Shown here: positions 14,301 to 47,060 of the stretch, in pieces
Position numbering within the stretch: the stretch's first letter is position 1
Layout of the letters: each line of letters starts with the position of its first letter
Source: Dioscorea cayenensis subsp. rotundata
Lineage: Eukaryota; Streptophyta; Magnoliopsida; Dioscoreales; Dioscoreaceae
Direction: 5' to 3'
Length of the DNA: 64,000 nucleotides
Assembly (NCBI RefSeq): GCF_009730915.1
Contig: NC_052474.1
Span: 5,057,501-5,121,500, forward strand
The notes under the pieces: model-generated
The model's database searches: none
What the model saw: only the letters and a program-made list of their open reading frames with translations
What the model was told of the DNA's origin: nothing
Program-made: the position numbers and the translations under genes

Positions 14301-15860
14301 AAATTCCTATCAAAACGTGAGGTGTTTGGGCGATAGAGTGCCAACACTGAATGGATAAAACCGATCAGTTATAAATGGGTGTTTGTGAGAAAAGAAATGA
14401 AAAATAATCAAAATTAAGAGATACTAAAAGCAAGCCTGGTTGCTCGAGGTTTTTCTCAAATGCCTAGTATTGATTATGAAGAGACATACTCTCCTGTAAT
14501 GGATGGAATTACTTTTAGATTTTTAATTGCCAGTGGCAAGTAATAAATTAGATATGCGAGTTGATGGATGTTGTCACAGCGATATCTGTATGGATTACTT
14601 GAAAATGACATATATATGAAAAATCCCGAAGGATATAGAAAAACAAACATTACAAAATAATCATCATTTATACTCTATTAAATTAGAGAGATCTCTGTAT
14701 AGGTTAAAAAACAATGCTGGGCGGATGTGGTATAACTGGTCTCGAAAGGAATATCTTATAAAAGAAGGGTACCAAAATGATAATATATGTCCATGTGTGT
14801 TTATTAAAAGTTATACTAACGGTTTTGTTGTGATAGCAGTATATGTGGATGATTTAAATCTTGTAGGCACTCCTTCTGAAATTGCAACTACAACATCATA
14901 TTTGAAAAAAGAATTTGAAATGAAAGATTTGGGAAAGACCAAATTCTGTCTAGGTATACAAATCGAGCACTTATCCTCAGGAATATTTATGCATCAATCA
15001 ACCTATACGTAGAAAAGGTCGTTTGAAGAGATTCGATATGGGAAGCGCTTATCCAGCTGAGGTACGCCAGATGGTCGTCCGAACTCTTGATGTTCACAAA
15101 GATCCATTTAGCCCACCGGAAGAAGGAGAGATCATTCTTGGTCCAGAAACTCCATATTTAAGTGCACACATCGGTGCATTAATGTATCTTCGCAAATATC
15201 ACGAGACCCGAGATATAGCTTTTGCAGTAAATCTTCTAAAGAAGATACTGCTTTCTACGCGGCTACGAAGACACTCGGAAAGGAATAAAAGATGTGCTAC
15301 TCGTTATTTACGAGGAACTACGGATCTGGTTTATTCGTATCGACCAGTGAATCTTCATCCAACCTCATGTGTTTTCTTGGATGCTGGTATCATCATCCTG
15401 ACTAAAGGGCGATCTCGAGATCGGATACATGTTTTCTTACAATGGTACGGCTTATCTCATGGTTGCCCACAAAACAAACCTTACTTACTTCATCAAATCA
15501 CGTACAAATTCTAGCTTTCCATGAAGCAAGTCGTGAATGCCTAATGGTTACGATCTATGATTGGGCATATACAATCATCCTACAAAATTACCATCTTTGA
15601 ATAACAAATCTACTGATAATTTATGAAGATACAGCTTTCATGTTTCTCAATCATGAGGAGGTTATTAAAAGGTGACGAAACGAAGCATATATCACCTTAA
15701 AATTTTCTACACTCCATGATCTCCGAAAGCAGGCGAGAAGTTCACAAAAGATTGAATCCAAAGGAGAATCAAGCTCGATCTATTCACAAAATCACTTCGT
15801 AAAGTGTATCTACCAAAGACTTATATACATAAATCGTGGATGAGAAGACTTAAGGATGTA
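11394..15860 (+). pseudogene. Frameshifted copia gag-pol of copy 1
   Basis: The likely start is ATGGCAAATATC at 11394. Recognisable pieces in order are: gag with QDFKSVQEYNSELFKIVSRL near 11730; a decayed zinc-knuckle region near 12200; the GAG-pre-integrase piece KIWHERLGHP near 12755; integrase pieces at 12856-13149 and 13338-13628; reverse transcriptase at 14725-15012 with the YVDD active-site box (AVYVDDLNLVG) and KDLGKTKFCLGIQIEHLSSG; and RNase H pieces to about 15550. Each piece is in a different frame with stops between, so no functional polyprotein is encoded as written. Whether the breaks are biological or assembly errors cannot be told from the window alone. Confidence 0.88.
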
Positions 15861-16085
15861 AGTACTTGATATAAATTAAAAAGTTATTTATTTGAGGGTG
15901 GATCTGTCTCTTTTCCTTCGATGCTTTTTGTCCCAATGGGTTTTTCCGGCAGGTTTTAATGAGTGAAAACCCTCAAATGTACAAGCGAATAGTTGCACTC
16001 CTTAGCTGGGTTTTTATCCCATTCCCGTTTTTCCTGACGAAAGGTAGACGGCATATCCTTTGGTCAGTAGGCATCCCGGCGGGAG

Positions 16086-16485
16086 TGTTATAAACAAATA
16101 TTTTAATGGACGCCATCGAAGCAATTCACTCTAGAGAAATGCATTACTATAGTAACATTTAGATATCACAGTAGTGTATTACGCAACATCTGTAGCAAAT
16201 TACCACGTGGTGCATCGTAGTGGCATGCCGTGCATCACATTATTCCACCAACTGGTATTTTTGACCGCCGGATCGAATCGATCGCCGGCTGCTCATTCAA
16301 CTTTTTGTAACCCTATAAATACCCCCTCATTTTGTATATTTTGAGGACATAGAAAAGAGAAAGAGAAAGAAAAGTAAAAGAAGAAAGAAGAAGAAGGCAA
16401 TTCGTGTGTTTTGGGTTTTTGTGAAAATACTCCTGCGTCTGCTTATTACTATTCTTTACATTTTATAACATATATATTCTTAATA
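16086..16485 (+). repeat. 3' LTR of copia copy 1
   Basis: Starts TGTTATAAACAAATATTTT after GGCGGGAG (a short purine tract) and ends TTCTTAATA. It is followed by (TA)n and then unique sequence that also follows the 3' LTR of copy 2. Confidence 0.9.
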
Positions 16486-17034
16486 ATATATATATTTTCA
16501 AATATATACATGCAATCAATCATGACACAGAAGAAGAAGAAGAAAATTTCATCCTTTTCATTTGACTAATAATTATCAATTGAATGATGTATGAATGGCT
16601 TGCTTTGCACCAACCCAAATAAATTATGGTCAGATAAGCAATGTAGGGCAGCACGGAGGGCCCAATCCGTTTCAAGGAGTTGACATTTCTGCTCACCAAT
16701 TTGCAGTGCTTATATTAATTGGTTCATGGTCCATATCAACTAAGAGAGACATGTGTACACAATATGCAACTTTGCCCTCTTCTCCATCAATCTTTCTTCT
16801 CCTTTCTGATGCTCTGCAGACAAGGTTGCAATCTAGTCATGCTGATTCCTCAGTACTGCAGTAGGACGTGTTGGTTCACAAGTCTATGACAGAGGTTGAT
16901 TGAGTAGATATATATATATATATATCCTTATCTCAGTTGCATATATTGGTTTTCTATCGTTTTGATTCAAAAGAAAACCAACCATTGTCACTTTATTATT
17001 CTTGTTTCCATTCATCTCTTTGTATTATAATTAC

Positions 17035-17382
17035 ATGGAGAACAACTCAAGAACAGCGAGAGTCTAATCTCAAAGACCTTCCAAAGATGTCGTGGTCCTT
17101 TGGCAGCAAGCAAACAAGGACTACACCAGCCATGGTCTTGAAGACAAGGTCACAGTTCGAGTCCCCAGGAAGTGTAGAAGAAGGCACCGAGTGGATGTCT
17201 TGGGTAATGAGAGACTGAGAGATTCTTTGTGCGACAGAGGTCATTAACCACCCACTGTTCAAGAAGCTGTTAGATGATGTTGGGATGGTGTATGGTTTTG
17301 CCACTGAAGGTCCTTTGGAGCTGTGTAACGTGAAGTTTTGAAGAGTAAAAGGTGAGATGAGGATGGAAGGAGAAGATGGTGG
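17035..17382 (+). pseudogene. Broken SAUR gene copy, truncated by gap
   Basis: From ATGGAGAACAACTC at 17035 this matches the intact SAUR gene at 27599 almost base for base. A lost C after codon 4 shifts the frame, giving a stop after about ten codons. Further indels follow (for example around 17170 and 17220), and the sequence ends in the 1000 N gap before the equivalent of the C-terminus. About 550 bp upstream of the ATG, back to the copia 3' LTR, is also shared with the intact copy. It may be a decayed duplicate or a poorly polished second rendering of the same gene. Confidence 0.8.
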
Positions 17383-18382
17383 NNNNNNNNNNNNNNNNNN
17401 NNNNNNNNNNNNNNNNNNNNNNNNNNNNNNNNNNNNNNNNNNNNNNNNNNNNNNNNNNNNNNNNNNNNNNNNNNNNNNNNNNNNNNNNNNNNNNNNNNNN
17501 NNNNNNNNNNNNNNNNNNNNNNNNNNNNNNNNNNNNNNNNNNNNNNNNNNNNNNNNNNNNNNNNNNNNNNNNNNNNNNNNNNNNNNNNNNNNNNNNNNNN
17601 NNNNNNNNNNNNNNNNNNNNNNNNNNNNNNNNNNNNNNNNNNNNNNNNNNNNNNNNNNNNNNNNNNNNNNNNNNNNNNNNNNNNNNNNNNNNNNNNNNNN
17701 NNNNNNNNNNNNNNNNNNNNNNNNNNNNNNNNNNNNNNNNNNNNNNNNNNNNNNNNNNNNNNNNNNNNNNNNNNNNNNNNNNNNNNNNNNNNNNNNNNNN
17801 NNNNNNNNNNNNNNNNNNNNNNNNNNNNNNNNNNNNNNNNNNNNNNNNNNNNNNNNNNNNNNNNNNNNNNNNNNNNNNNNNNNNNNNNNNNNNNNNNNNN
17901 NNNNNNNNNNNNNNNNNNNNNNNNNNNNNNNNNNNNNNNNNNNNNNNNNNNNNNNNNNNNNNNNNNNNNNNNNNNNNNNNNNNNNNNNNNNNNNNNNNNN
18001 NNNNNNNNNNNNNNNNNNNNNNNNNNNNNNNNNNNNNNNNNNNNNNNNNNNNNNNNNNNNNNNNNNNNNNNNNNNNNNNNNNNNNNNNNNNNNNNNNNNN
18101 NNNNNNNNNNNNNNNNNNNNNNNNNNNNNNNNNNNNNNNNNNNNNNNNNNNNNNNNNNNNNNNNNNNNNNNNNNNNNNNNNNNNNNNNNNNNNNNNNNNN
18201 NNNNNNNNNNNNNNNNNNNNNNNNNNNNNNNNNNNNNNNNNNNNNNNNNNNNNNNNNNNNNNNNNNNNNNNNNNNNNNNNNNNNNNNNNNNNNNNNNNNN
18301 NNNNNNNNNNNNNNNNNNNNNNNNNNNNNNNNNNNNNNNNNNNNNNNNNNNNNNNNNNNNNNNNNNNNNNNNNNNNNNNNNN
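17383..18382. other. Assembly gap (1000 N)
   Basis: Exactly 1000 N, the usual placeholder for a scaffold gap of unknown size. Any long open frame through it is meaningless. Confidence 1.
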
Positions 18383-20226
18383 TCTTGTTTGATAGCTTCT
18401 AGTGGCCAATTTTGATGAGATTTACCTAAGAATGGTCGGTCAGAGACTTGAAGGTACACAATTCTCTTCCACGTAATTCAAACAAGAAAGACATTTTGGG
18501 AAAAATAATTCTTTATTTCTTAATTTTGGATCAACTCTTCTCAAAATAAAGTAAAATTCATAATTCAAAATACAGAGCATTTGTGTTTGAGGTCTATTTT
18601 TATTTCAATAAAACTATAATTTATATTTTATCAAAAAAAAAAATAGCATATTTCCATAATTTTTTAATTTTGATTTTATTTAAATAATCCAACAGAGAAC
18701 TTTTGATGAATATATCCAAGCACAACGTACTCTCAAAACGCTATAATACAAATTAATAAATTAGAGTCATTTGTGCGTGTCGGGTTAGTGCTGGGTTCAT
18801 AGTCTACAACTAGTGAGTCTATCTCTGTTGTCAACTCATTGTTGTTTATTTATTTTATGCGGTTTTATGTGTATTTTACATTTTTCATAAATTTAAGTAT
18901 TTGCATCCATATTTTTCTTTAGACGAAAATACTTATTCATGCGTATCTTGCATACATCTTTGATTATTTTCTTGGATTTGCAATATTTGATTAGAGCTAG
19001 ACCATGGGTATATATATATTGTTGGGTTTGAGCTCATTTGGTGATCCGGAAGCTACCAACAAAGAAGAAATAAAAGCTTGGAGCTTGGCTCAAGATAAAA
19101 ATGAAAAAGATGAAGCTATGTCGATAATGAAGAAGTGGATGGCAACAGGTAATTTCCGCAGATTAAATTCTCTCATTCTTTTGTGAATGAGAATGAGTCA
19201 TTCTTGGAGAAAGGCTATGTGCATGTACATGCTATGTGAGAGAGAGACAAGAGGAAGCTACCCGCAAAGCCACGAGAGTGGAGAAGAGAGAGAGAGCTAG
19301 AGGCGGGGAGATCGGACGCTGAGATGGCGTACGGATCTCACTTTCGAAACTCCGGGAGGAGATTACGCTATGACTTCGCTTGCGAGCTGTAGGTTGATCG
19401 CTGGCCACCTCTGCTCTGGCATTGTTTCAGTGTCCCGTAAGCTTGTTCGTGATGGTGGTGGTAATGTCGTCTGAATCGCTTTTCTTTCATGAATTTTGTT
19501 GCCCTAAAGTTCGTATAAATGCTCGTTAGTGAGGAGGCAGTATGTGGCTTCATTGTTGACATAGGTGGATGCGTGTTTGGAGGCTCACACAGGAGTCCCG
19601 CATTGGTTTTCACACGTTAAGTAGGGTTTTCGCCTAAAATTGTGGCTTTGCGTTGTTGTATGTTTGTTCGATCCATTCTATGCAGGGGTGATGGGTTTAG
19701 TGAATGTCTATGCTTTGTTTTGTAAGGCGTTAAAGAAAGTGTTCGATAGAAGACTTGAGAATACATTTGAAGACTCGAGGAAGCTCTACAAGATTTTGCT
19801 GACTTATGCGGACTGCATCTTGGCCACTTACAGGTCGCCCGGTGGAAGCTCAGCTGGAGTGTTTTGCGACGCGCTGGACCCGCACATGAAGCGATTGAGC
19901 GAGTGGCTTTACTACGGTGCGGTGTGCTGACCAAGGCTTCACGCGGGCGGCTTGGCCGCATGGTCACCGATGATGAGGTTCGCGGGAAAGTGTCTTGCCG
20001 CGATCACCCGGTAGCGTGTGAGCTGATGTAATAGTGCGCTTCTCTGGTCTTGGGTGAGACACGGTGGCGTTATTCTTATAAGTCGCTTGCGTGATTTTTC
20101 ACATTGTTCAAAAGCGGGATAAACTGACGCCATATATATATATATGAGAGTGTCGACCAATACTTAACCTTTGTGGCGATTACTTATTATATAAGCGTCG
20201 TTGTTTTCGGTATGTCATTTCACTTA
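18383..20226. other. Unrecognised sequence after gap 1
   Basis: The AT-rich start gives way at about 19000 to more balanced sequence with two modest plus-strand open frames. 19004-19186 includes a charged EEIKAWSLAQDKNEKDEA stretch. 19640-19930 includes a stretch reading RRLENTFEDSRKLYKILL. Neither matches a family I recognise, and both could be gag-like retroelement debris or fragments of a gene in noisy sequence. No splice-consistent gene model could be built. Confidence 0.35.
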
Positions 20227-20743: not shown

Positions 20744-21151
20744 TGTTATAAAGCAAAATAATATTTTAATGGATGCCTCTTGCACTGTGATTCAGCATGC
20801 TTGTAGGCATTCTTATAGTAACACAGATATCCTCTATGTAGCGTGCGCCGTGTTTATGTATTGCTGGTAATAGTCTTGTGCTTGACCATGGCCATTGCTA
20901 TTCTTATTCTACCAGCGTGTTATTTTGAGTGAAAAGTCGGATCGGTCGATCTTGGCGGATTCGTTCGACTCTTTGTAACACCTATAAATGCCCTCGTTTT
21001 GTATATTTTTGAGACATAGAAAAGAGAGAAAGAAAAGAAGAAATAGAAGAAGAAAGAAGAAGCTAATTAACTTGAGGGTTTTGGGTGTTTGGTAAATACT
21101 ACGGCTCTCTATCACTTATCTTTATATTTGTAACATATATGTTTCTATACT
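20744..21151 (+). repeat. 5' LTR of copia copy 2
   Basis: Starts TGTTATAAAGCAAAATAAT and ends before CGTTATCGTACG. It aligns to the other three LTRs but carries more small changes than any of them, including in the stretch after the TATA box. Confidence 0.8.
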
Positions 21152-21923
21152 CGTTATCGTACGAATTTTGCTCATATGATTTTTAATTTCTTTGACTCAT
21201 CTAATATATATGTTATATATGTAGAATCCATTCTAACATCTGAATGCGGGGAAGGATCGACGGAGTAATATAATACTAGCAAACCATACATTTTATTAGG
21301 TCGACAATACATAAGATTTTTTTAGAAGCGTACATAAAAAACACTCGATGTAAAAGCCACTAAGGCTAATATTGCGATAGCTTTTAAAATAAACAAGAAA
21401 AACAATAATATTATTATTACTGATGAGGGTTTCCATCAAAGTCCAAATTAGCAAGACATCGTCTTCTCTCGGCGACCCTCCGATCCGGCGATCGTTGACA
21501 AAATCGGTAAAAACACTGCACGCCCCTTTTCTCAGATAGCCGCTTCTCTCTACTCCATGCGGTTTCTCCGTAGATGACTCGACCCGGCTTTTTCGTCCGT
21601 CGACTCGGGAGAAAACTTTTTCTCCGTCGTACTCGGTGGAAACTTTCTCTCGTCAGGCCCCCTATTTTCATCTCTCCACTATTTTTACTTCTTCTTCCTT
21701 TTAACTTATAATCACTTTCAAACAAATTTTTAATTCCCAATCTTTGCAGATAATTAGCGGTGATATGACAACTCATGCCATACATGAGCAGATCTGCAGT
21801 ATACATGAGATAGTGCTGAGTACATGAGCGATCTCAGTATACATGAGCGGTATAGATGCTTTTATGTTTTATTACGTACTCTCTATTCTAATTACATGTT
21901 GTATTATTATTTTTGAAGAGAAA

Positions 21924-24900
21924 ATGGCAAATATGTGCAAAAAGAGAATTTGAGGGCCCTTCAGATCTCGGGAGAGCGATTATATATCCCGGAGCCTCGA
22001 TGTCAAGCTCCGTCGATCAGCAAGAAACACAGAGTAAAACTATCAGGGGCTAATAACAATGAGCCTAGTGATATATAAAGGCGAAGGCCTTAATATTTAT
22101 AAAGGCATCGTATTGATGATGGCACGAAGAATGAATACTTGACCATTGAGGATCCAGCGGGAATTGTGGTTATCCACGAAAGAGATTTGAACATCTCGGG
22201 AATGGTCTACTTGCCCAAAGCATGAATGATTGGTCAAGCCTCGGGGTTTCAAGATTTTAAAAGCGTGCAAGAATATAATTCGAGCTATTTAAAATTGTTT
22301 GATGCTTCGTCTACGTGGAGAAAGCGTTGGTGTAAGGAATGATGCTTTCGAGAAAAACATTTACAGACATTTCACATACGAAATGTTATATTACAACAAC
22401 AATATAAGAAAAGAATTTTTACAAAATTCTAAGATTAATTTCTTGTCTCCTGTGGCGGAGCAAAACAATGAATTGTTGATGCTGAGAATCATCAATCTCG
22501 ACCATCCGGATCGACACCGGCTGCGAAAATTAATTTTTGGGCAAAAGAAGATGGGCGTGGTCAGCGGTCTAGTTTTAAAAACCGCGGTGGGACGAGGGAA
22601 ATTATGGTGGTCGAGGACTCTGCGGTCGTGGTGGGGGCCGAAAAATAATGTCGGACCACGCGATATGAGAATGATGTACATCAAGGCAAAGCAAAAAAGC
22701 CACAAGATGGGGTTAGAGACAAAGAAAGATACATGCTATCGTTGTGGCTCGGAAGGTCATTGGTCGAGGAAATTTGCAGGACCCCAAAACATTTTGTCCA
22801 TCTTTACCAAGAATCACTTAAAAACAAGAAAGAATATGGCTGATGATGAATGCATTATTGATTGCGGGACAACACATACTATTTTGACAAGAAAAATATA
22901 TTTTATATCCTTATCAATGAGAAAGGCATATATAGCCACAATAGCAGGGTCATCGACTCGGTTGAAGGTTCGGAGAAGCGGCGTTGATGTTGCCAAATGG
23001 AACATCCTTGAGGATGAAAAATGCTCTCTATTCCCCTAAGTCTAGAAGGAACCTTTTTAAGCTTTTTAAAGATATACGCTCTCAATGGATATCATTTAGA
23101 GGCGGTTGATAAGGAAGGAAAAGAATATCTTTATATTACACAAGTCATTTCATGCCAAAAGCGTGTACTTGAAAAGCTTTCCATGTATATCCCTCGAGGA
23201 TTATATTTTTACACGTATTAAAGTGATGGAATCACACGGTATTAACCGGAAGGTTAATGACCCGAGATATTTAAAATATGGCATGAAAGACTTGGACATC
23301 CCGGGTGCTATTATGTTGCATCGGATTATTACTAATTCTCATGGACACCCACTGAAGGATTATAAAATCCTAACACATAATGAATATGCATGTTCGAGCG
23401 TGTTCGATGGGAAAAGCTAATAACCGGACCTTCTATAACAAAAGGTGGTCGGTGAATCTCCTAAATTTTTAGAAAGAATACAAGGAGACATTTGTGGACC
23501 AATACATCCATCATGATGGACCATTTAGGTATTTTTATGGTTTTTAATCGATGCATCGACTAGATGGTCCCATGTTTCACTTCGTCTACGAGGAATGTAG
23601 CATTTGCAAGGTTATTGGCACAAATTATCGGGGCTTAAAAGCACAATTTCCGGATTATCCCATAAAAGACAATTCGTCTTGATAATCTTTGGTGAATTTT
23701 CATCAAAATCATTTTATGATTATTGTATGGCGAGTTGGAATACATGTTGAGCATCCGAGTGGCTCATGTACATACCCAAAATGGGTTAGCGGAGTCATTA
23801 ATTAAAAGACTCCAGATTATTGCCCAGTCGATGTTATTAGGGACTGAAGCGCCTACAAGTGCGTGGGGTCATGCTATTTTTGCATGCTCTGCACTTTTAA
23901 TACTGGATCCGACCCACTGCATGTAATTCATATTCACCACACCAACTTGTTATGGGTAAAGGCACTGATATTTCATATATAAGAATATTTGGTTTGTGCG
24001 ATGATATGTGCGATACCACCACCAAAATCGTACAAAAATGGGTCCACAGACGAGACTTGGTATATATGTTGGTTATGATTCCCCCTTCAATTATACGATA
24101 TTTAGAACCATTAATCGAGGGGATGTATTTACTCGCAAGATTTGCGATTGTCATTTTGATGAATCATGTCTTCCCTGCGTTAGGGGAGAAATGATTACTC
24201 AAAATGAGCAAAAAGAAATTGATTGGAATGCATCACGATTACATACATATGATCCTCGTGACCAATGAATGTGAACTTGAAGTTCAAAGGATCATTAAAT
24301 TGCAAAATATTGCAAATGAAATACACTGATGCATTCACTGATACTAAAATGGTAACCAAATCATATATACCACTGCTAATGCTCCCTGCAAGAATTGAGA
24401 TTCCTAAGAATCCATTGAAAGAAAAATCAAGTAGAAAATAAACCACGACAAAAAGCGTGGAAGACCAATTGGTGCCAAAAGATTCGGCTCCTAGAAAAAG
24501 GCAGGAAAAAAATAAAGATAAGGATCTCCCATGTGAAAAGGGAGAGGAAATTATAAAACCCTCGTAACAAGTTAATGAAGAATCAATGGGGGATGATATT
24601 TCAGAAAATGTTGAAAAGTCAATTTGCTATGTAGATGATGGTCAAAGATTGAATCGGCATGAGACCGAAAATAAATGATATATTCATCTACAATGTAGCT
24701 ACAGATATAGAAATAAATCACGATAATGATCCGAGCCACGATCCATTGAAGAATGTCGACAAAGAAATGATTGGCCAAAATGGAAAGAAGCTATCCGGTC
24801 GAGCTAAATTCCCTATCAAAAGCGTGAGGGTGTTTGGGCCGATAGTGCCAACACGGAAGGGATAAAAACCGATCGGTTATAAATGGGTGTTTGTGAGAAA

Positions 24901-26400
24901 AAGAAATGAAAATAATCAAATTAAGAGATACAAAAGCAAGACCTGGTTGCTCAAGGTTTTTTTCTCAAATGCCCGGTATTGATTATGAAGAGACATACTC
25001 TCCTGTAATGGATGGAATTACTTTTTAGATTTTTTTAATTGCCATGGCGACAAGTAATAAATTAGATATCGCGATTGATGGATGTTGTCACGACGATATC
25101 TGTATGGATTACTTGAAAAATGACATATATATGAAAATCCACGAAGGATATAGAAAAACAAACATTACAAATAATCATCATTTATACTCTATTAAATTAC
25201 TGAGAGATCTCTTTATAGGGTTAAAAACAATGCGGGACCGGATGTGGTATAACCGTCTCAGTGAATATCTTATAAAAGAAGGGTACCAAAATGATAATAT
25301 ATGTCCATGTGTGTTTATTAAAAGTTATACTAACGGTTTTGTTGTGATAGCGATATATGTGGATGATTTTAAATCTTGTAGGCACTCCTTACGAAATTGC
25401 GACTACAACATCATATTTGAAAAAGAATTTGAAATGAAAGATTTGGGAAAGACCAAATTGCATCTAGGTATACAAATCGAGCACTTATCCTCGGGAATAT
25501 TTGTGCATCAATCAACCTATACGTAGAAAAGGTGCTCGAAGAGATTCAATATGGAGAAGGCTTATCCATCTGAGTACGCCCTGATGGTCAGTCCGAGACT
25601 CTTGATGTTCACAAAGATCCATTTCAGCCCACGGAAGAAGGAGAGATCATTCTTGGTCCGAAACTCCATATTTAAGTGCAATCGGTGCATTAATGTATCT
25701 TGCAAATAATACGAGACCGGATATAGCTTTGCGATAGAAATCTTCTAGCAAGATACTGCTTCTACAGCGACACGAAGACACCTGGAAAGGAATAAAAAGA
25801 TGTGCTCACGTTATTTCACGAGGAACTACGAGATCCGGGTTTTATTCTATCGACAAGAATCTTCATCCAACCTCGCGTGTTTCTTGACGTCTTGGGTATC
25901 CATCTCGATCCTCACAAAAGGGCGATCTCGGGATCGGATACATGTTTTCTTCAGATGAGTACGACTATCTCATGGCGTTCCACAAAACAAACTCTTACGA
26001 CTACTTCATCAAATCATCGTGAAATTCTAGCTCTCCATGAAGCAAGTCGTGAATGCCAATGGTTACGATCTATGATTGAGCGTATATCGATCATCCCGCA
26101 AATTACCATCGAGTAACAACAAATGCTACGATGAATTTATGAAGACAACGATGCTTGTATTTCTCAAATACAAGGAGGTTATATTAAAGGTGACGAGCGA
26201 AGCATATATCACCAAAAATTTTTCTACACTCATGATCTCCGGGAAAAGAAGGCGTTATAGAAGTTCAAAAGATTCGATCCAGGTGAGAATCAAAAGTCGA
26301 TCTATTCACAAAATCACTTCCTAAGTGCATTCACCAAAGACTTATATACAAAATCGGGATGAGAAGACTTAAGGATGTAAGTACTTTCGATATAAATTAA
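21924..26400 (+). pseudogene. Frameshifted copia gag-pol of copy 2
   Basis: The likely start is ATGGCAAATATG at 21924. Recognisable pieces are: the gag zinc knuckle CYRCGSEGHWSRKF near 22735 (CCHC with the last Cys lost in this reading); the protease block CIIDCGTTHTILT near 22855; integrase pieces from about 23260 to 24200; reverse transcriptase at 25044-25526 with YVDD (AIYVDDFKS) and KDLGKTKLHLGIQIEHLSSG; and the RNase H block STKQTLTTTSSNHREILALH near 25980-26060. The pieces lie in alternating frames, so it is non-coding as written. Confidence 0.88.
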
Positions 26401-26626
26401 AAAGTTATTTATTTGAGGAGAGCTGCACTCTTTTTCCTTCGCCAGAGGTTTTTGTCCCAATGGGTTTTTCAGAGGCAAGGTTTTTTTAATGAGGCGAGTA
26501 ACCCTCAAATGTACCAGAGGATAGTGTACTCTTTTTTCCTTAGCTAGGTTTTTTTATCCCACTCGGGTTTTTCCCCGACAAGGTTTTTAACGAGGCATAT
26601 CCTTTGGTCGTAGGCATCGAGGGGAG

Positions 26627-27036
26627 TGTTATAAACAAATATTTTTAATGGATGCCCTCATCGTAGCAATTCACCGTAGCAGTGAGCATTACTATAGTAA
26701 CTTCTAGATATCAGCATGAGCAGCAACACTCGTAGTGACCGCCCATGTGGTACTGCTGAGCGACCGCGATCTTATTACTATTCCACCAACCGAGGGTATT
26801 TTTGGACCGTCGGATCGAATCGATCCCGGCCCGTTCATTCAACTTTTTGTAACCCTATAAATACCCCCCTCATTTTGTATATTTTGAGACATAGAAAAGA
26901 GAAGAGAAAGAAAAGAAAGAAATAAAAGAAGAAAGAAGAAGAAGCTAATTCTTCAGGGTTTTTGGGTTTTTGGTAAATACTCTGGCTCTCTATTCTTATT
27001 ACTATCTTTACATTTATAACATATATATTCTTAATA
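26627..27036 (+). repeat. 3' LTR of copia copy 2
   Basis: Starts TGTTATAAACAAATATTTT directly after the purine tract GAGGGGAG and ends TTCTTAATA. Confidence 0.9.
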
Positions 27037-27598
27037 ATATATATATTTTCAAATATATACATGCAATCAATCATGACAAAAAAAACAGAAGAAGAAGAAG
27101 AAAATTTCATCCTTTCATTTTGACTAATAATTATCAATTGAATGATGCTTATGAATGGCTTGCTTTGCACCAACCCAAATAAATTATGGTCAGATAAGCA
27201 ATGTAGGCAGCACGGAGTGGCCCATCCGTTTTCATGAGTTGACATTTTGCTCACCAATTTGCAGTGCTTATATTAATTGGTTCATGGTCCATATCAACTG
27301 CAAGAGACATGTACACAATATACCAACTTGGTTGCCCCTCTTCTCTCCATCAATCTTCTTCTCCTTCTGATGCTCTGGCAGACAAGGTTGCAACTAGTCA
27401 TGCCTGATTCCTCAGTACCTAGCATGGACGTGATGGTTCACCAAGTCTATGACAGAGGTTAACTGAGAGATATATATATATATATATCCTTATCTCAGTT
27501 GCATATATGGTTTTCTATCGTTTTTGATTCAAAAGAAAAAACCAACCATTGTCACTTTATTATTCTTGTTTCCATTCATCTCTTTGTATTATAATTAC

Positions 27599-28048
27599 AT
27601 GGAGAACAACTCCAAGAACAGCAAGAGTCTAATCTCAAAGACCTTCCAAAGATGCCGGTCCTTTGGCAGCAAGCAAACAAGGACTACACCAACCATGGTC
27701 TTGAAGACAAGGTCACAGTCAGAGTCTCCCAGGAAGAAGAAGAAGGCACCGGAGGGATGTGTCTCGGTGTACGTTGGGAAAGAGACTGAGAGATTCTTTG
27801 TGCGCACAGAGGTCATTAACCACCCACTGTTCAAGAAGCTGTTAGATGATGCTGAGATGGTGTATGGTTTTGCCACTGAAGGTCCTTTGAAGCTGCCATG
27901 CAACGTGAAGCTCTTTGAAGAGGTGTTGTGGGAGATGGAGATGGAGAAGGAGATGGTGGTTACTCCATCACTGGCTTGTAGCTTCTCTAGGAGTTCTTCT
28001 GGGTATCATCTTCTCAGCCCCTCCAGACCCATGGCCATGCATGGGTGA
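27599..28048 (+). CDS. SAUR family auxin-responsive protein
   Basis: Single-exon gene of 149 residues, as usual for SAUR genes. The start chosen is the ATG of MENNSKNSKS; the open frame upstream has no other ATG. Residues 1-48 are basic and Ser/Lys-rich. The SAUR core spans about 48-114, with APEGCVSVYVG, the RFFVRTEVINHPLFKKLL block and YGFATEGPLKLPCNV, which correspond to the family's conserved segments. The tail is Ser/Met-rich. SAUR proteins are small, short-lived regulators that in well-studied members inhibit PP2C.D phosphatases and so promote plasma-membrane H+-ATPase activity and cell expansion. That role is inferred for this member. A (TA)n run about 110-130 bp upstream could serve as TATA element. 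A broken copy of gene and promoter lies at 16486-17382. Confidence 0.92.
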   Translation: MENNSKNSKSLISKTFQRCRSFGSKQTRTTPTMVLKTRSQSESPRKKKKAPEGCVSVYVGKETERFFVRTEVINHPLFKKLLDDAEMVYGFATEGPLKLPCNVKLFEEVLWEMEMEKEMVVTPSLACSFSRSSSGYHLLSPSRPMAMHG

Positions 28049-33330: not shown

Positions 33331-34330
33331 NNNNNNNNNNNNNNNNNNNNNNNNNNNNNNNNNNNNNNNNNNNNNNNNNNNNNNNNNNNNNNNNNNNNNN
33401 NNNNNNNNNNNNNNNNNNNNNNNNNNNNNNNNNNNNNNNNNNNNNNNNNNNNNNNNNNNNNNNNNNNNNNNNNNNNNNNNNNNNNNNNNNNNNNNNNNNN
33501 NNNNNNNNNNNNNNNNNNNNNNNNNNNNNNNNNNNNNNNNNNNNNNNNNNNNNNNNNNNNNNNNNNNNNNNNNNNNNNNNNNNNNNNNNNNNNNNNNNNN
33601 NNNNNNNNNNNNNNNNNNNNNNNNNNNNNNNNNNNNNNNNNNNNNNNNNNNNNNNNNNNNNNNNNNNNNNNNNNNNNNNNNNNNNNNNNNNNNNNNNNNN
33701 NNNNNNNNNNNNNNNNNNNNNNNNNNNNNNNNNNNNNNNNNNNNNNNNNNNNNNNNNNNNNNNNNNNNNNNNNNNNNNNNNNNNNNNNNNNNNNNNNNNN
33801 NNNNNNNNNNNNNNNNNNNNNNNNNNNNNNNNNNNNNNNNNNNNNNNNNNNNNNNNNNNNNNNNNNNNNNNNNNNNNNNNNNNNNNNNNNNNNNNNNNNN
33901 NNNNNNNNNNNNNNNNNNNNNNNNNNNNNNNNNNNNNNNNNNNNNNNNNNNNNNNNNNNNNNNNNNNNNNNNNNNNNNNNNNNNNNNNNNNNNNNNNNNN
34001 NNNNNNNNNNNNNNNNNNNNNNNNNNNNNNNNNNNNNNNNNNNNNNNNNNNNNNNNNNNNNNNNNNNNNNNNNNNNNNNNNNNNNNNNNNNNNNNNNNNN
34101 NNNNNNNNNNNNNNNNNNNNNNNNNNNNNNNNNNNNNNNNNNNNNNNNNNNNNNNNNNNNNNNNNNNNNNNNNNNNNNNNNNNNNNNNNNNNNNNNNNNN
34201 NNNNNNNNNNNNNNNNNNNNNNNNNNNNNNNNNNNNNNNNNNNNNNNNNNNNNNNNNNNNNNNNNNNNNNNNNNNNNNNNNNNNNNNNNNNNNNNNNNNN
34301 NNNNNNNNNNNNNNNNNNNNNNNNNNNNNN
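33331..34330. other. Assembly gap (1000 N)
   Basis: Exactly 1000 N, a placeholder gap of unknown true size. It cuts the LINE-like ORF on the left and leaves only ~260 bp of upstream sequence for RMI1 on the right. Confidence 1.
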
Positions 34331-37500: not shown

Positions 37501-38806
37501 TCAATTTAAACAACGAAGTACCTTTGAGCTTCGTGTTTATGTTGATGATGGCAGTCTGATATCTGAGGTCATCATTGATCATGATGTGAGTTCATATTGA
37601 TTTTGCACTTCAAATTGACAGCCTCTTTAGCTGTCCATTGTATAAGAGCTTTCTGTTTATCATTTAGGTTGTACAGATGTGTATTGGTCACTCTCCAGAG
37701 GAGGTTTCTGCTGCACTTTCTTCCTCAGAAAAAAGGATAGTGACAGAAATGAGGGAGACAATGAAAAGTTTTCAACTTTACTTGGCTAGATTTGAGGTAC
37801 TTAGATCTTTCCTGTTCATATTTTGAATGAATGCTGCCTTTTCCTGTCTTCTCAAATAAAGATATTATGGTGCCTACTTTCATCTAAAGGAAAAAATCTG
37901 TATGGTCTAAGCGCTAATGGTTTATGCGACAGTTTGCATTTTACTAGCTCCTAAAAGATCAATCTTGCAAAGAAAGCTTAAAATGAGCCCTGGGCTCCCT
38001 ACGCTGTAGGGGCAACGAACTAGCTGATATTCTTAAATGAATATATGGTGTACAGTTAGGAATTTGGAGCTGCTCTCCCGGAATGTTTATTAGAATGCTA
38101 TTTTCATAATTTATTTATACTGTTCCTCAAATGGCAACTGGTTGCGCTATTGGTCCAAGGGATATTACCTTCTCTGATACCAAATTGTAGAATAAATGGA
38201 AATGACAATGGCAATGATGGGAATGAAACCTTGGGTTTTCTTGGTCTTCCATACCTTCCTGTTTAAAATTTCACATCTTAGGATTGAGCCAGATTTATCA
38301 TTTAAAGTAGGGTCTGCTCTTTAAGTGTGTCCTCCGACCAAAAGAATACGCTTTTAAGTCCCCAGACCCAGTTTGATTTATTTAATTGTACTTAAGGCAA
38401 TCGCTGCTTTTCTTTTTTCTTTTTTTTCAAAGACTAAATAAGCTTCGACTTAGAGAGATTTCTTCTCTTGAGATTTACTAAGAAATTGCTTATAAATCAT
38501 CTCTTTATTTCAAGTCCATCAATCAAACATGATAAAAGTATCCTATTCTTTTTCATTAATCTTTGTATTCATCAAGCAATTCCGTTATGAACTGTTTCTT
38601 GATTCAAGTTATTCTCCTTGTCTATGTAATTCCAGGGCACAATGTTGGTTAAGATTAGTGAGAGCACATCTGTGCCAGTTGCTGTGGAGATGAATCAAGG
38701 CTGTTCAACTGCTGATGCATGGATGCTCCTCAGACGATTAAAAATGTTCACAGCTCCTCAAACCGAACGTGGGCACAACCTTGACCCAATTGAGCTGTCT
38801 CCTTGA
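34592..38806 (+). CDS. RMI1: RMI1, RecQ-mediated genome instability protein 1
   Basis: Eight exons with GT-AG junctions and matching phases: 34592-35029, 35112-35282, 35679-35824, 36467-36597, 36880-37229, 37475-37585, 37668-37796 and 38636-38806. They give 548 residues. RMI1 is the OB-fold scaffold of the RecQ helicase-topoisomerase 3-alpha complex that dissolves double Holliday junctions and limits crossovers in the nucleus. The N-terminal helical/DUF1767 part lies at about 60-115. OB1 follows across exons 1-3 (VELQGPFVLQIDEIVNIS, MEYRPIKELDVL, LLMLVPEVLEVLGG). A variable middle leads to a C-terminal OB2 at about 385-548 (FTYLACLLARW, GFQFKQRSTFELRVYVDDG, FQLYLARFEGTMLVKI). The acidic N-terminus includes an Asn-Pro repeat encoded by CCCTAA units. 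Exon limits are my own reading; exons 4 and 5, in the variable middle, are the least certain. Confidence 0.93.
34664..34689 (+). repeat. CCCTAA telomere-type repeat inside RMI1 exon 1
   Basis: Four AACCCT units in a row lie in the reading frame and encode alternating Asn and Pro near residues 25-32 of RMI1. Confidence 0.9.
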
Positions 38807-39667
38807 TGTGTTAAAAGTGTGTTCTGTGTCATTTGTGCTGTGGCTATTTCACATCAGATGGAAACCATGGTAAAGTTCTTTATTCCAGCAGGGCACCAAA
38901 TTATTCAACCGTTTATTATTATTTTCATTATTTCCTAGCAAAACACTCCACTAATCTCAAAACCAACACTGCACACACCTTTAGGAGGAGGATATTTACA
39001 GAACATCAACACAGATTGTCCAGTGATTATTATTAGAAAGAAGGTTCTTCATTTCTATTTGATTAGTGCAACTTGATTTCTGGCTCTCGTATAGTAACAT
39101 GGTACAGTATCTCTTTGGCCCCAATTGCATCCATTACTATCTTACTTGGTGGAGTTGCATTCCCGGGCGTGCTATTAAAAGCAACCGGAATAAAAGGTCT
39201 ATGACTTCAGGCACAAAAACCCTCCACAGGTATAGGACAGCGAACCATGTAGCCACTGTCAAGTAGCGTTTACCCCTCCGAGCTGCATCCACAATGGCCT
39301 TAGCACACTCTTCACTGTATATCACTGGGTAGAGCCCTACTTGAAACTGTCCATCATATATAAAACTCATATTAACATTGTGTATATCATGGTGCATTAT
39401 TAATTCATTTCATCAATCACAACAATTTAACCGGATAGAGAAAACTAAAGAAAGTGATGTTTTCTTACATCTCTTATGTCTTGATCAACTACAAGTCTGC
39501 CATCTCCTGCTAGGAATTTGCCCTTTGTCATCTCTGACTCGGTCCAGCCTGCAGTTGCAATAGTTATTCCGATCTCATTCCTGAACTCAATGCGCAATGT
39601 CTCAAAGAAGTTGATCATTGCGGACTTGCTTGCCTATTTTTAATCAGTATGAGAATTATCATTAATT

Positions 39668-39690
39668 CATATATATATATATATATATAT
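39668..39690. repeat. (TA)n microsatellite in pseudogene intron
   Basis: Read directly in the sequence, between the NNAG-downstream exons of the steroleosin pseudogene. Confidence 0.9.
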
Positions 39691-40437
39691 CACATAATTA
39701 ATATGAAGCAGTCATATTTTATCAGTAGCAATGGTTAGAAACACACATTGTAAAAGCTCATCCTTGGATATGGCAGCCAACCACCAGCTGAAGCTTTGAC
39801 AATGATCTTACCCCTTGTCTTTTTCAAGTGAGGCACTGCTAAATACGTTGCATAAACAGAGCCCCAGAAATTCACATCCTGAACCAAGAAAAAAGAATCA
39901 CATCTTAAATACAGCACTCACATCAATTCATGAATAAAATAATTTCATGCATAAAGTTCAGGTTGTTTTTAGATACCATCACTGTTGTGAAGTTCTTTAC
40001 ATTCGAAACATCTTCAAACATGCAGGCATGACCGATACCAGCATTATTCACCAGATGATCCACTTTAATTAAAAACAAATATAAAATCAACCATTAGAGA
40101 TTTTGAAAAGAAAAAAAAATTCAAACATGAATGCACATGGACACAACCAACTTACAGCGACCGAAGCGGTCCACGGCAGCTTCTATAACCCTCTGGCAGT
40201 CATCGCACATCAGGTGCCCCTAGTCCTTGAGCTTGCTCTGCAACTTCTGTGAAGCTTCTCTCTCTCTCTCTTGGCCACCAGAACAAGATTTGCTCCCTTC
40301 TTGCATACTCATAAGCCAGGTGCTGACCAAATATATAATATAATCAATCATATCAGAGATGATAACATAATCTTCATTGTTAAATTTAAACATTACTTTA
40401 AGATCCAACTAACCCATTACTATCATATATATACATA

Positions 40438-40582
40438 CATGGAACTAGTAGTACTTCACTGATCTCTGTTATCATGTTCATGTGTATATATAAGACATGC
40501 ATGAGTATATATATATATATATATATGAGGAGAGAAGTGTATATATATAGACATGATACTAGCAGTACTTCACTGATCGCCT
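40438..40582 (-). repeat. Imperfect ~30 bp duplication around the lost exon-1 donor
   Basis: 40438-40466 and 40552-40582 share CTAGYAGTACTTCACTGATC with similar flanks and a (TA)n run between them. On the minus strand the right copy spans the end of pseudogene exon 1 and the left copy lies within intron 1. Confidence 0.65.
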
Positions 40583-40620
40583 TTGCCTGAGGAAGCACCG
40601 GTGATTATGACGACCTTGTG

Positions 40621-40625
40621 GGTTA
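40621..40625. repeat. Target-site duplication, left copy (GGTTA)
   Basis: GGTTA immediately left of the copia element at 40626; the identical 5 bp follows it at 45553. Confidence 0.93.
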
Positions 40626-41711
40626 TGTTGGGGTTTGGACGATATTTTGAAACAGTGAAAAATTGCGGAAATTACTGTAGCAATGTTACGGTTCACCAAA
40701 CACTGCAGCACTGTTACTGTTCACGCGCGGACGGTGTGCGGCGTGCAAACTTCACTGGCAATTCTACGCGGCCCGCGTGCAGCCCGCGCACTTCACTGGC
40801 GATCGTCACACTTCACTAACAAGTTTGCGCGGCCCACGTGCAGCCCGCGTGAACTGGTAACACCTTGAACTAGATCCTTTGAGGCTTCAAAATCTTCCCA
40901 AATGTTCTACAAATTTTCAAGGCTCTAACTCAAGTATAAAACACTACCAAACCCCTCAATTCTTGTTAGAATGGGATGAACAAACATACAAAAATGCAAG
41001 ACAACGATTTAGCGTGGAAAACCCTACGAATCGAGGGAAAAACCATGGGACTCCTTAGAGCCTCTTAAACATGCTTCACTACATCAACAATGGGATACAA
41101 TGAGGTCTCTCTCTAGATACAACTAGAGGATCAAAGAGGTTTCTCTCTAGATACAACTAGAGGATAACAAAGAAGTTTCTCTCTAGATACAACTAGTTAT
41201 CCATACAACTAGAGGATAACAAAGAAGGTTTCTCTCTAGATACAACTAGAGGATAACAAAGAAGAAGGCACAACAACTCAAGAGCAAGCTCTTGGCACAC
41301 ATACATCATCAACACACATAATGGATAACAAAGAGAGATATCAAGAAGAGATTAAGGAAGATCAAAACCCGGTGAGGGTTGGGAGAACTACACCGCAAGG
41401 ATTGACTACCCGAGTTGAGGGCGAAATCCGGCACCGATTTGCTCGACCGATCATCTTGCTTTTGCTCGACCCCTAGCCTCCTTTGTCTTCCCTCTTCTTC
41501 TTGGTTTCCTTGCCTTCAAACCCTCACATTTTGCCTTCTTTCCCTTTTCTTGGCTGACCTCACCCATATCCTCATCATCTCACTTGGTTATAAATACCAA
41601 TGAAAAATTACCATTAAATCCTCGAGTGGCTTCCATTATTGATGCGGTTTTTTTCTTCAACTTGGGCCAAGCCCAATTATTTCTTCTAGCCCAAATGGGT
41701 GAAACCCAACA
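40626..41711 (-). repeat. 3' LTR of the exon-1 copia element
   Basis: 1086 bp. The minus-strand start is TGTTGGGTTTCACCC and the end CCCCAACA. It contains GC-rich GCGCGGCC-type repeats near 40800 and four ~41 bp tandem units built on TTTCTCTCTAGATACAACTA at about 41103-41250; the other LTR has only three such units. Confidence 0.93.
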
Positions 41712-41725
41712 AACCTCCCCCTCAG
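41712..41725 (-). other. Polypurine tract of the exon-1 copia element
   Basis: On the minus strand this reads CTGAGGGGGAGGTT, directly before the 3' LTR. This is the priming site for plus-strand synthesis in LTR elements. Confidence 0.85.
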
Positions 41726-44505
41726 CTCCATTTGGGGGGCTCATCCAAGCATACCCTTTGCCTACAAGCCGCAATCTTCTCCTTAGGCAAGATCTTATGC
41801 TTGTGCACTCGCTTGTACTTGAGTGCCTTCTTGCCCTTAGGCAGTTTCGCCAAATCATGATTATGGTTCTCATACAAGGAACTCATTCCTTCTTGCATGG
41901 CTTTAAACCACTTTTGCTTCTTGTCATGCAACTAAGTTTCTTGGTAGGTTTCTGGCTCTCCACCGTTACTAAGCATGACAGACTCCTTAGTACTGCATCT
42001 ACTAGATAGATAACACTCTCTAGTAGTTCTTCTCAACTGAGGCTTCACTGGTGGTGTTGGTGATGGTAGTACTTCTTCTTCATTAGTTGGTTCTATAGCA
42101 TCAATTACATGAAATTGTCCTGCCCCTTTAACTGGCCTTACTCCATCAGTCAAATAGGCTTGTACTGCTGCCCCGTCAGCTAACTTTTCTTCATTAGTTG
42201 GATGGGCTATAATTACCCTTATCTCATCACCATCTTTTTGCACATCTCCCCCTTGATTTACATTCACCATAAGAGGGGATATAGGATCCAAATTGTCAGA
42301 AACTCCAACAGAGGAACTAGGAGATTCACCTTGGTTGCCATCATCTACCACATGGCCTTCAAGGAATACCACATCTCTGCTCTTGACAATTTTCTTGCTC
42401 ACGGGATCCCACAACCTGTATGCAAACTCATCATGGCAATACCCCATGAAAACACATGGAATTGCCTCAATACCATCAAGCTTGGATCTTCCACCCTTAG
42501 GAACATGAACAAAGGCCCTGCAGCCAAACACTCTCAAGTAATCATATGAGACATCTTTTCCAGTCCAAACCCTGTCTAGCACACCACTGTCCAAACTAGC
42601 TACTGGAGAAAGGTTGATCAAATCAACTGCAGTCCTCATTGCCTCCCCCCAAAAGGGCTTAGGCAGCTTTGCATGAGAGAGCATCCATCTGATCCTCTCA
42701 ACAATTGCCTTGTTCATCAACCCTGCCACACCATCCTACTGAGGTGTCCTGGCAGATGTCATCTCAAGCCTGATACCACTGAGTTTGCAATACTGTTCAA
42801 ACTGTCCACCGTACACACCACAACTGTCTGCCTTGACTGCTTCCAGCTTCTTCCCTGTCTCATTCTCAACTTTGAGATGGAACTCCTTGAAAGCATCAAG
42901 AACCTGATTTTTGGTCTTTAGAGTAGTGGTCCACACCTTCCTTGAGTGATCATCTATGAAGGTTACAAAACAATGTGCTCCTCCAAGGGATTCCTCTTGC
43001 ATGAAACATACACCAATATGAATCAAATCAAGAATACATGACTTCGTACATGGGGAATATGAGTGAAAAACAACTCTATGCAATTTTTTCCTCTAAGCAA
43101 TCATCACAAGCTTTGAGAGTCATACCTTCCAAGTTGGGTAGACATTGGTTCATAGCGAGAAGATGCAATTCTTTCTCGCCGATGTGGCCAAACCTCTTGT
43201 GCCAAAGATCAATGTCTCCACCCTCCTTAACTGTATTCACCTCTCCTTTGTGAACCCTTGCTTGCAAACCATAGAGTGTGTCCGTCTTCTTTCCTCTAGC
43301 AACCACTAGGGAGCCTTTGGTAAGCTTGCATTTGCCTTCACCAAACCAACTGACGAACCCCTCATCATCAAGCTTGCTTGTGGATATTAGGCTTAGGCTC
43401 ATGTCTGGAACATGCCTGACATCTTTGAGTAGCAACTTGTACCCAAGGTTTGTCTCCAACCAAACATCTCCAATACCCACAACCTTTGATGTAGCATTGT
43501 TCCCCATCTTCACATCCCCAAAATCACCACTAGAGTAAGAAGTAAAGAGGTCTTCATGAGAAGTAACATGGAATGACGCTCCTGAGTCAAGTACCCAGTT
43601 ACTCTCTTGGCTTCCCAAACTAATACGACTATCATCACGAGACAACACAAATGTCACCCCTCTGCTGACTCATCGTATTTGTTTCCTTCTCCTCTTCACT
43701 TCCTCTACCCACTGTTCTCTCCTTAGGAATCTGCACTCCTTCTTCATATGACCCACTCGTTGCGGTGAAAACACTTGATGTTCTTTTCCGCTTCTTGGCC
43801 TTGCTCTGGATGTTTCTCTGTCCCCATAAACCTGTGGAAGTCTACTTGCACTTCTTCCACGTTGTTCATGGGTTTCTGATATGAGTGCTTCGAAGAAGAT
43901 TCACCTTTGTCTTTTTCTTCCCGGCTTCTTCACTCAATAAGCTTTCTTTCACCATCTCCATTGTTAAAACTCCTCCAGGGGCTGAAGTACACAGAGATAC
44001 TACCAATGTTTCCCAACTATCTGGTAGAGAGCTTAGAAGTCGCAACGCTTGCAATTCATCTTCAAGAGTCATCTCCATAGATGTCAATTGGTTCACCAAG
44101 CCCACGAAAGTCACTAGTATGCACGATCATACTCTTTCCTTCTCTGACTTCAAATTCACCAATCTTTCGATGGTTGTGGCCTTATTTACGAAGGTATTCT
44201 TCTCATACAAGGTCGCTAGCTTTTTTTCCATAGCTTATCCGCCTTCACATCTTCGAAATATGGTGGAAGATACTTGCATCAACCCATTGCTCGATTGTGG
44301 CGATGCCTTCAAATGCAATATCCCCATTCATCATCGATCATACTCCACGGCTTTGTCTTCCCCATAGTAGGGAGATACGGATCTTTCACAATTAACAAGT
44401 CTTGCATCCTTCTCTTCCAAATCGAATAATTCGATTGGGATAATTTTATCATCATATATGTATTTTCTCCTTCCATTCTAGATCACAAGAATTGCCTCTA
44501 TCAAC
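41726..44505 (-). pseudogene. gag-pol remnant of the exon-1 copia element (no RT/RNase H)
   Basis: Minus-strand order: gag with LTSMEMTLEDELQALRLLSS near 44050-44110 in a frame broken elsewhere; a decayed CCHC knuckle near 43760; protease with WVLDSGASFHVTS near 43600; GAG-pre-integrase DLWHKRFGHIGEKELH near 43190; the integrase core with FVTFIDDHSRKVW near 42960, interrupted by a stop at about 42738; and the integrase C-terminal/linker region to about 41932. An RT start follows (WFKAMQEGMSSLYENHNHDL) with one more stop. RT active-site and RNase H sequences are absent. The integrase-linker frame of 265 residues (42729-41932) is the longest intact piece. Confidence 0.9.
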
Positions 44506-44510
44506 CTGGC

Positions 44511-44522
44511 GCTCTGATACCA
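44511..44522 (-). other. Primer-binding site (initiator-Met tRNA type)
   Basis: Minus strand TGGTATCAGAGC, the standard plant LTR-element match to the 3' end of initiator methionine tRNA, two bases after the 5' LTR. Confidence 0.93.
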
Positions 44523-44524
44523 CT

Positions 44525-45552
44525 TGTTGGCGCTCTGATCACTAAACACTGTAGCACTGTTACTGTTCACGCGCGGACGGTGTGCGGCGTGCAAACTTCA
44601 CTGGCAATTCTACGCGGCCCGCGCGGTTCACTGGCGATCCGCTGTGGTTCACAAATAAGTTTGCGCGGCCCGCGTGCAGCCCGCGCACTTCACTGGCGAT
44701 CGTCACACTTCACTAACAAGTTTGCGCGGCCCACGTGCAGCCCACGTGAACTGGTAACACCTTGAACTAGATCCTTTGAGGCTTCAAAATCTTCCCAAAT
44801 GTTCTACAAATTTTCAAGGCTCTAACTCAAGTATAAAACACTACCAAACCCCTCAATTCTTGTTAGAATGGGATGAACAAACATACAACAATGCAAGACA
44901 ACGATTTAGCGTGGAAAACCCTACGAATCGAGGGAAAAACCATGGGACTCCTTAGAGTCTCTTAAACATGCTTCACTACATCAACAATGGGATACAATGA
45001 GGTCTCTCTCTAGATACAACTAGAGGATCAAAGAGGTTTCTCTCTAGATACAACTAGAGGATAACAAAGAAGGTTTCTCTCTAGATACAACTAGAGGATA
45101 ACAAAGAAGAAGGCACAACAACTCAAGAGCAAGCTCTTGGCACACATACATCATCAACACACATAATGGATAACAAAGATAGACATCAAGAAGAGATTAA
45201 GGAAGATCAAAAACCCGGTAGGGTCGGGAGAACTACACGCAAGGATTGACTACCCGAGTTGAGGCGAAATCCCAGCACCGATTTCTCGACCGATCATCTT
45301 GCTTTTGCTCAACCCTAGCCTCCTTTGTCTTCCTCTTCTTCTTGGTTTCCTTGCCTTCAAACCCTCACATTTTGCCTTCTTTCCCTTTTCTTGGTCGACC
45401 TCACCCATATCCTCATCATCTCACTTGGTTATAAATACCGATGGAAAAATTACCATTAAATCCTCGAGTGGCTTCCATTATTGATGTAGTTTTTCTTCAA
45501 CTTGGGCCAAGCCCAATTATTTCTTCTAGCCCAAATGGGCTGAAACCCAACA
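44525..45552 (-). repeat. 5' LTR of the exon-1 copia element
   Basis: 1028 bp, starting TGTTGGGTTTCAGCC on the minus strand and ending CGCCAACA. It matches 40626-41711 except for one fewer ~41 bp internal unit, an extra GC-rich repeat segment near 44630, and a different last ~60 bases. Confidence 0.93.
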
Positions 45553-45557
45553 GGTTA
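45553..45557. repeat. Target-site duplication, right copy (GGTTA)
   Basis: GGTTA directly after the copia element, identical to 40621-40625. Joining the flanks at one copy restores an uninterrupted exon-1 frame across the site. Confidence 0.93.
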
Positions 45558-45801
45558 GATCTTCAGGGAAGAGAAAGGAGAAGGCGGAGATGAAGATCTT
45601 GAAAAAGATAATGGGTGAGAGGAGGAGGAAGAGCGGGGTGATTAAGATTGGAGTGGTCACTAAGTTCATCACCAGAGTAAAGAAATCCATGCCTGAAATA
45701 GTGTAGTGTTGGACCTCAGAGTGATCTGTACATTATTAACTTAAAAAAAAAAAAAGAAAGAAATGAATGAAAGGAGCTGACGAGGAGATACAATTTGGTG
45801 C

Positions 45802-45897
45802 CACGTGGCTGTGTTTCCGCTGCATGGATGAAAGGGATTATCCACGTGTAGTTCCGTTTTGCATGCATGCATGTGCGTATAGAGTCTACTCCACGTG
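45802..45897 (-). promoter_or_regulatory. ABRE/G-box and RY motif cluster of the steroleosin pseudogene
   Basis: CACGTG occurs at 45802-45807, 45843-45848 and 45892-45897. An RY-type CATGCATGCATG lies at 45862-45873, 110-210 bp upstream of the ATG at 45690. ABREs (bZIP/ABI5 class) and RY elements (B3 factors such as ABI3/FUS3) together are the classical seed-maturation promoter signature, matching an oil-body protein gene. The link to expression is inferred. Confidence 0.7.
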
Positions 45898-45899
45898 TA

Positions 45900-47060
45900 A
45901 ATTAACCCCAATTTTGTTTTGGAAATGAGAGTATATCTATCTGTCTAGTTCCCATCTGATAGATGAATTCAGTGTGATTCTAGTTAGTAAGCCACGTAAT
46001 GGATTTTAGATTTTTTTTTTTTTCTCTATGATTACTTTCATAAATATATTTATGGATGCGTAGGCCTCTCACCGGAGTGGTTGCACCAAAAAATGTATAT
46101 AAATTTATAGCAATATATGAATATACCTTTCTCTAAACGTGACCACTTTGGGCTATTTTGTATTTATTATATTTGAAATTTTCTTTTATAACCCTCAGTT
46201 TTGAGTTGAAAAGTATTTAAATTACTTTTTATGAAATTATTAAACTTCAACATACGGACGGCATGTCCTATTATATATATATATAGATATCATGTGGCAG
46301 GTTGCAAAATTTTTTTGGGGAAAAGGAGCGGGGCGAACTCACTAGAGATCTCAGGGATATGCACAAGTCTCGGTGAAACAAGTGGGGACGGGGCCATGCT
46401 CACGTGGGCGCTAGAACCACTCGTACACAATCACTATTTACAACTCTCAGAAATATACCCTCAGCCGAGAATCAAACTCTCACCACTTGGTGAGAGATCT
46501 ATCGATGACCCGTATACCAATAGACCCGAAGGCCATTGGCTACAAGTTACAAAATTGATTGAGACTTGAGAGGAAACTACAAAGTTTTTTTTTTTTTGGG
46601 TATTATATCCATGTCTTCTTAATTGTTACCAACGTCCTTTTTGTACTCTTAAATATTATGACATGATATGATTTTAAGCCTATGAGTTATGGGATTGAGT
46701 TTTATAAATAATTAAACTTGTCAAACCGTTAAGACATTAATTAAAAAATTACATGACAATGATATATACATTCATCTTTAATACATATATAGCTGATGTT
46801 TTTTTTTTTTGTTGGAATTAATTCATATGAATTCATACAAAGCACACCATCTATAATCTTAAGTAATCATTTGTACCAATCTTACTTATAAATCGAAAAA
46901 AAAACATGATTCTTATAAATTAAAACCATTCACACTGACACTGCCAACACATCCTTAATTAATTCCTTGCGTCTATCTTAAATTCCAACCTAGCTATCCG
47001 CTGCTCATTAATAACTCCATCAGACAAGAACATTAATGCATAAAAAAATAAAATAAAAAG
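45900..47060. other. Intergenic spacer with a GC-richer island
   Basis: Mostly AT-rich. 46300-46560 is GC-richer, with phrases such as ACCACTTGGTGAGAGATCTA and ACCCGTATACCAATAGACCC, and an open frame of 112 residues without a known domain. It looks like an inserted dispersed repeat but I could not define its ends. Confidence 0.35.

Follow-up and report, generated by a model that had tools for sequence, protein, structure and literature searches.

The 64-kb window (the whole stretch of DNA analysed here) carries on its minus strand a six-exon gene with its ATG at 45690 and its stop at 39063, split in its first exon by a Copia-type LTR element of 4,927 bp (40626..45552). Exon 1 is thus in two parts, 45553..45690 (start codon and hydrophobic segment, up to FPEDLT, including a copy of GGTTA at 45553-45557) and 40576..40620 (HKVVIITGASSGKGD), and is followed on the same strand by exons 2 (40156..40322), 3 (39977..40062, LDHLVNNAGI...), 4 (39747..39878), 5 (39469..39633) and 6 (39063..39346). 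Introns 2-5 are bordered by GT and AG. A previous sequence-only reading placed one limit of the gene at 39137; this position is a premature stop in exon 6, and the C-terminus typical of the family runs on in a shifted frame to 39063.

Neighbouring genes in the window give Pfam matches to BAHD-type transferase, lipid-transfer and PIG-S families, from which the window reads as plant DNA, and a search of 38000-47000 for structured RNA gave none at gathering thresholds. Two 7-kb stretches, 10400-17382 and 20938-27959, are 87% alike in the same orientation, and contain open reading frames that we take to be Copia-like and SAUR-like; the left copy ends at the first of two scaffold gaps (17383-18382 and 33331-34330), each of exactly 1,000 N.

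Family membership of the split gene

By its sequence the gene can be placed firmly in the SDR family: the joined exon pieces (with X) match the SDR domain model PF00106 at 2e-34 (119.2 bits, cut-off 26.6). A search of solved structures returned 39 matches, headed by a (3R)-hydroxyacyl-CoA dehydrogenase (5.5e-28), with 11-beta-HSD1 chains next (5e-21 to 1e-18). The Ser and Tyr in exon 4 and the Lys in exon 5 (KASAGGW...SFYNASK), which we take to be the catalytic residues, look intact, as had been claimed. The best 25 of 175 NCBIfam matches of the exon 2-6 piece all lie under their own cut-offs (157.7 versus 215 bits for the top one), and no curated model among these 25 supplies the name steroleosin.

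The name steroleosin/HSD, that of an oil-body enzyme, agrees with the steroleosin type of the earlier reading and is supported by our analysis; it rests on published motifs and intron phases. Ten HSD motifs are listed in Table 3 of PMC10311447, which does not give the spacing between them, and these were cut into 14 partly overlapping pieces for a scan of the window. Nine of the ten have their best match in the window inside this gene, in order. Motif 6 matches best at 45633-45556 (score 59; best elsewhere 37), where it aligns ungapped as far as the junction and motif 1 picks up one residue beyond, and motif 7 matches best in the exon 6 region (score 42; best elsewhere 34). The remaining one, motif 9, covers the extreme N-terminus (first 19 residues); it has 6/19 identical residues here and better matches elsewhere in the window. 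A hydrophobic N-terminal anchor with a proline knob is described for steroleosin in PMC6914826, and a hydrophobic segment with prolines is present here as a candidate for this anchor, in an exon that is found by motif 6 and not by motif 9.

According to PMC10311447, plant HSD genes have six exons and intron phases that are mostly 0,1,0,0,0. The gene described here has the same pattern, with phases 1,0,0,0 for introns 2-5 and phase 0 for intron 1, the latter inferred from exon 2 (the donor itself is lost). Because introns with this six-exon phase pattern are present, a retrocopy is ruled out. No second HSD copy was found in the 64-kb window with a four-piece query, every match at E up to 1 being inside this gene.

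The locus shares with plant steroleosin/HSD genes the six exons, the intron phases (the first one inferred), a hydrophobic N-terminal segment (as a candidate anchor), the SDR motifs in order and YNASK; it differs from them in the element inside it, the lost donor, the disturbed frames of exons 2 and 6 and a Lys in the glycine motif. A functional member would have GASSGIGE as its glycine motif and a frame without breaks; we find GASSGKGD, an element in exon 1 and changes of frame in both exon 2 and exon 6.

The element in exon 1

The element consists of a 5' LTR of 1,028 bp (44525..45552), an internal part of 2,813 bp (41712..44524) and a 3' LTR of 1,086 bp (40626..41711), and it lies on the minus strand in the gene's own orientation. 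It has the hallmarks of a Copia-type LTR element: the LTR pair, TG...CA ends, a 5-bp target-site duplication (GGTTA at 40621..40625 and 45553-45557), and beside the 5' LTR a primer-site-like sequence that is presumably of the initiator tRNA-Met type. The insertion point is as exact as the sequence-only reading had asserted. Excision of 40626-45552 plus one GGTTA copy restores the exon-1 frame, and the joined flanks (45558 and above with 40625 and below) form an uninterrupted frame from the ATG at 45690 through MDFFTLVMNLVTTPILITPLFLLLSPIIFFKIFISAFSFLFPEDLTHKVVIITGASSG, which reads MDFF...FPEDLTHKVVIITGASSG.

Remnants of gag and of the integrase region lie in several frames of the internal part. 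The five internal ORFs scanned match PF14223 (1.7e-11), PF13976 (1.5e-10), PF22936 (1.1e-24) and PF25597 (3.3e-25) in Pfam, the domains being a Copia-type gag, pre-integrase, beta-barrel and SH3; integrase (rve) scores 21.6 bits, under its cut-off of 32.6, and no reverse transcriptase (RT) family was found in the five ORFs scanned. A complete RT and RNase H cannot fit, since the SH3 match is separated from the 3' LTR by only 643 bp, and on these two grounds an autonomous element is ruled out. The element may either have been defective on arrival and mobilised by a relative, or have lost its RT afterwards.

The U5 ends of the two LTRs (44525-44540 and 40626-40693) differ, the 3' LTR having 53 alignment columns to which nothing corresponds in the 5' LTR. 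This mismatch is unexpected for LTRs that were initially identical, and might be due to a later deletion or to template switching. Elsewhere in the window, 19551-19701 is 71% alike to part of the element's LTR, in inverse orientation.

Lesions in the coding exons

The glycine motif in the second part of exon 1 reads GASSGKGD, versus GASSGIGE in the published family (PMC10311447 Table 3), and no GT donor is present at the inferred phase-0 border that follows this codon (GGCGATCAGTGA); the Ile-to-Lys change and the loss of the splice donor that had been reported here are both upheld. The lost donor is overlapped by a local 39-bp repeat in direct orientation, whose copies (40426-40464 and 40540-40578, with TA-rich repeats between) are 87% alike.

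Exon 2 has both its acceptor and its donor. Its frame changes after HLAYEYARR (near 40296), where the family sequence GANLVLVAKRE continues in another frame, and comes back before EVAEQAQ, about 40 bp on, near a run of GA repeats. The frameshift previously described at this place is thus real, but its compensating partner had been overlooked, and 40322-40206 is one open frame with no stops (HLAYEYARREQILFWWPRERERSFTEVAEQAQGLGAPDV). Because the change is compensated within about 40 bp without a stop, it garbles a stretch of the protein and would not by itself have killed the gene. The deletion claimed after APDV (near 40205) is confirmed: published motif 3 lacks about ten of its residues here, from which we judge that about 29 bp have been deleted, with a change of frame.

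Exons 3-5 are open, and their introns are of the GT-AG type. In exon 6 the frame breaks at about 39184: motif 8 (39226-39185) and motif 7 (39164-39093) are read in different frames. In addition, exons 4-6 depart from the published consensus (VTPGW reads ATAGW, with TAG for TPG in exon 5; VVISSAAS reads IVKASAGG; YLTEPAW reads YLTVATW); from the sequence, these departures cannot be polarised between new mutation and old family variation. The later exons had been called clean, and this was taken as a sign of recent loss; the argument fails in view of the frame shift in exon 6 and of the altered conserved residues. A frame-broken tail of this kind can pass as clean, as after the exon-6 shift the first stop comes only close to the place where one is expected. 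We also considered a product of exons 3-6, in which the first Met is residue 14 of the stretch and the stop follows after 196 residues; it would be without the cofactor-binding half, and we judge it unlikely to work.

Age of the insertion and history of the locus

The LTR pair was compared over 957-960 sites with the divergent U5 end trimmed; the untrimmed alignment (28 substitutions/975) includes that end, which forces mismatches, and was not used. Depending on the gap cost, we count 13-19 substitutions with 9-12 small indels, in addition to one 51-bp and one 52-bp indel, and the divergence K is 0.014-0.020. This corresponds to an estimated age of 0.98-1.43 My at an alternative rate of 7e-9. 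With the grass rate of 1.3e-8, as cited in PMC7251063, the estimate is 0.53-0.77 My; the same paper carries a warning that gene conversion distorts LTR ages. Ten of 28 LTR differences, seven of them one-base indels, fall within the 150-bp stretch 41370-41520 (limits set after viewing the list of differences), and this cluster is possibly sequence error.

For the 1,019 bp of exon, 4.8-6.4 small indels per lineage are expected when all LTR indels are counted, and 2.5 when the cluster is left out (814 sites outside it). We observe three, two of them in exon 2 and the other in exon 6; the donor may account for a fourth, and beyond these small indels there is the one exon deletion of about 29 bp. 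At the full rate the probability of four or fewer is 0.24-0.48; at the lower rate that of four or more is 0.24 and that of five or more 0.11. With 4.8-6.4 small indels expected and three or four seen, neutral decay since the insertion suffices but does not prove that the insertion came first; the lower expectation is a less snug fit to such decay. The lesions had been described as independent. They are separate events, as was said, but their count (three shown and one inferred, versus 4.8-6.4 or 2.5) fits neutral decay since the element arrived.

We regard the locus, whichever event came first, as very probably an HSD pseudogene split by a Copia element. In the history that we propose, a plant steroleosin/HSD gene of the SDR family, which retains its introns as a pseudogene, would have received a Copia-type LTR element at codons 45-46 of exon 1, in its own orientation. 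With the element between the hydrophobic segment and the NADP-binding motif, normal protein production would very likely have ended; loss of the gene product would be the outcome. Further lesions would have accumulated along the gene (loss of the donor; a deletion and two mutually compensating frame changes in exon 2; a broken frame in exon 6; altered conserved residues), in a number that fits neutral decay since the insertion. That the insertion preceded the other lesions seems to us somewhat more probable than not. Overall the locus has the look of a dead gene of an ordinary kind and fairly young age.

The opposite order, in which something such as donor loss or the exon-2 deletion had already killed the gene and the element entered a pseudogene, is possible but rather unlikely. 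Conserved residues are altered in exons 1, 4, 5 and 6, and for the 1,019 bp of exon the LTR clock leaves room for about 7-10 substitutions per lineage; without the LTR cluster the 4-5 indels are somewhat above the 2.5 expected. On the other hand, the number of indels fits decay after the insertion when all LTR indels are counted, exons 3-5 are still open with GT-AG borders, and departure from a consensus does not separate new mutations from old family variation.

Much the same doubtful standing may be given to the idea that some of the breaks are base-level assembly errors, and that the true gene has the element and fewer lesions. The one-base breaks of exons 2 and 6 fall within runs of G and T, the compensating exon-2 change is at a GA repeat, and the one-base LTR indels are clustered in 150 bp, all of which such errors could explain. 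Three neighbouring genes nevertheless have single open frames over 284, 96 and 207 Pfam-matched residues (in ORFs picked as open), the element is not a feature of that type, and the deletion of about 29 bp is less likely to be one. A chimeric assembly join with no real insertion is very hard to credit. The window is scaffolded, and of its two 1,000-N gaps the closer one ends 4.7 kb away from the end of the gene, but a misjoin would not create a GGTTA precisely flanking each LTR end (about 0.001 by chance if bases are equally frequent) together with a complete LTR pair. The insertion may be heterozygous.

Loss of a gene through a Copia element in its first exon is known already. In the soybean e4 allele, as presented in PMC4719747, the Ty1/copia-like element SORE-1 has entered exon 1 of a phytochrome A gene; a Copia-type element in a first exon is common to both cases, with loss of function known in soybean, whereas the gene is another one and species, effect and allele distribution are established for e4. 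Retrotransposon insertion accompanied by separate coding lesions is also known already, from the epr pseudogene of Parasponia, whose lesions are compared among three species in the account of PMC9055685; there the element is of TY3-GYPSY type and upstream of the start codon, whereas here it is of Copia type and in exon 1. In the titles and abstract beginnings listed we found no description of the present locus. Taken alone, it is a standard case of gene loss caused by a retrotransposon. Steroleosins are linked to hormone metabolism in PMC6914826, and given these ties the loss would matter, but only if no intact paralogue exists. It is improbable that the insertion is fixed and has removed the only seed-type steroleosin of the lineage; were this so, the locus would provide a natural HSD knockout for testing the roles of oil bodies in hormone biology.
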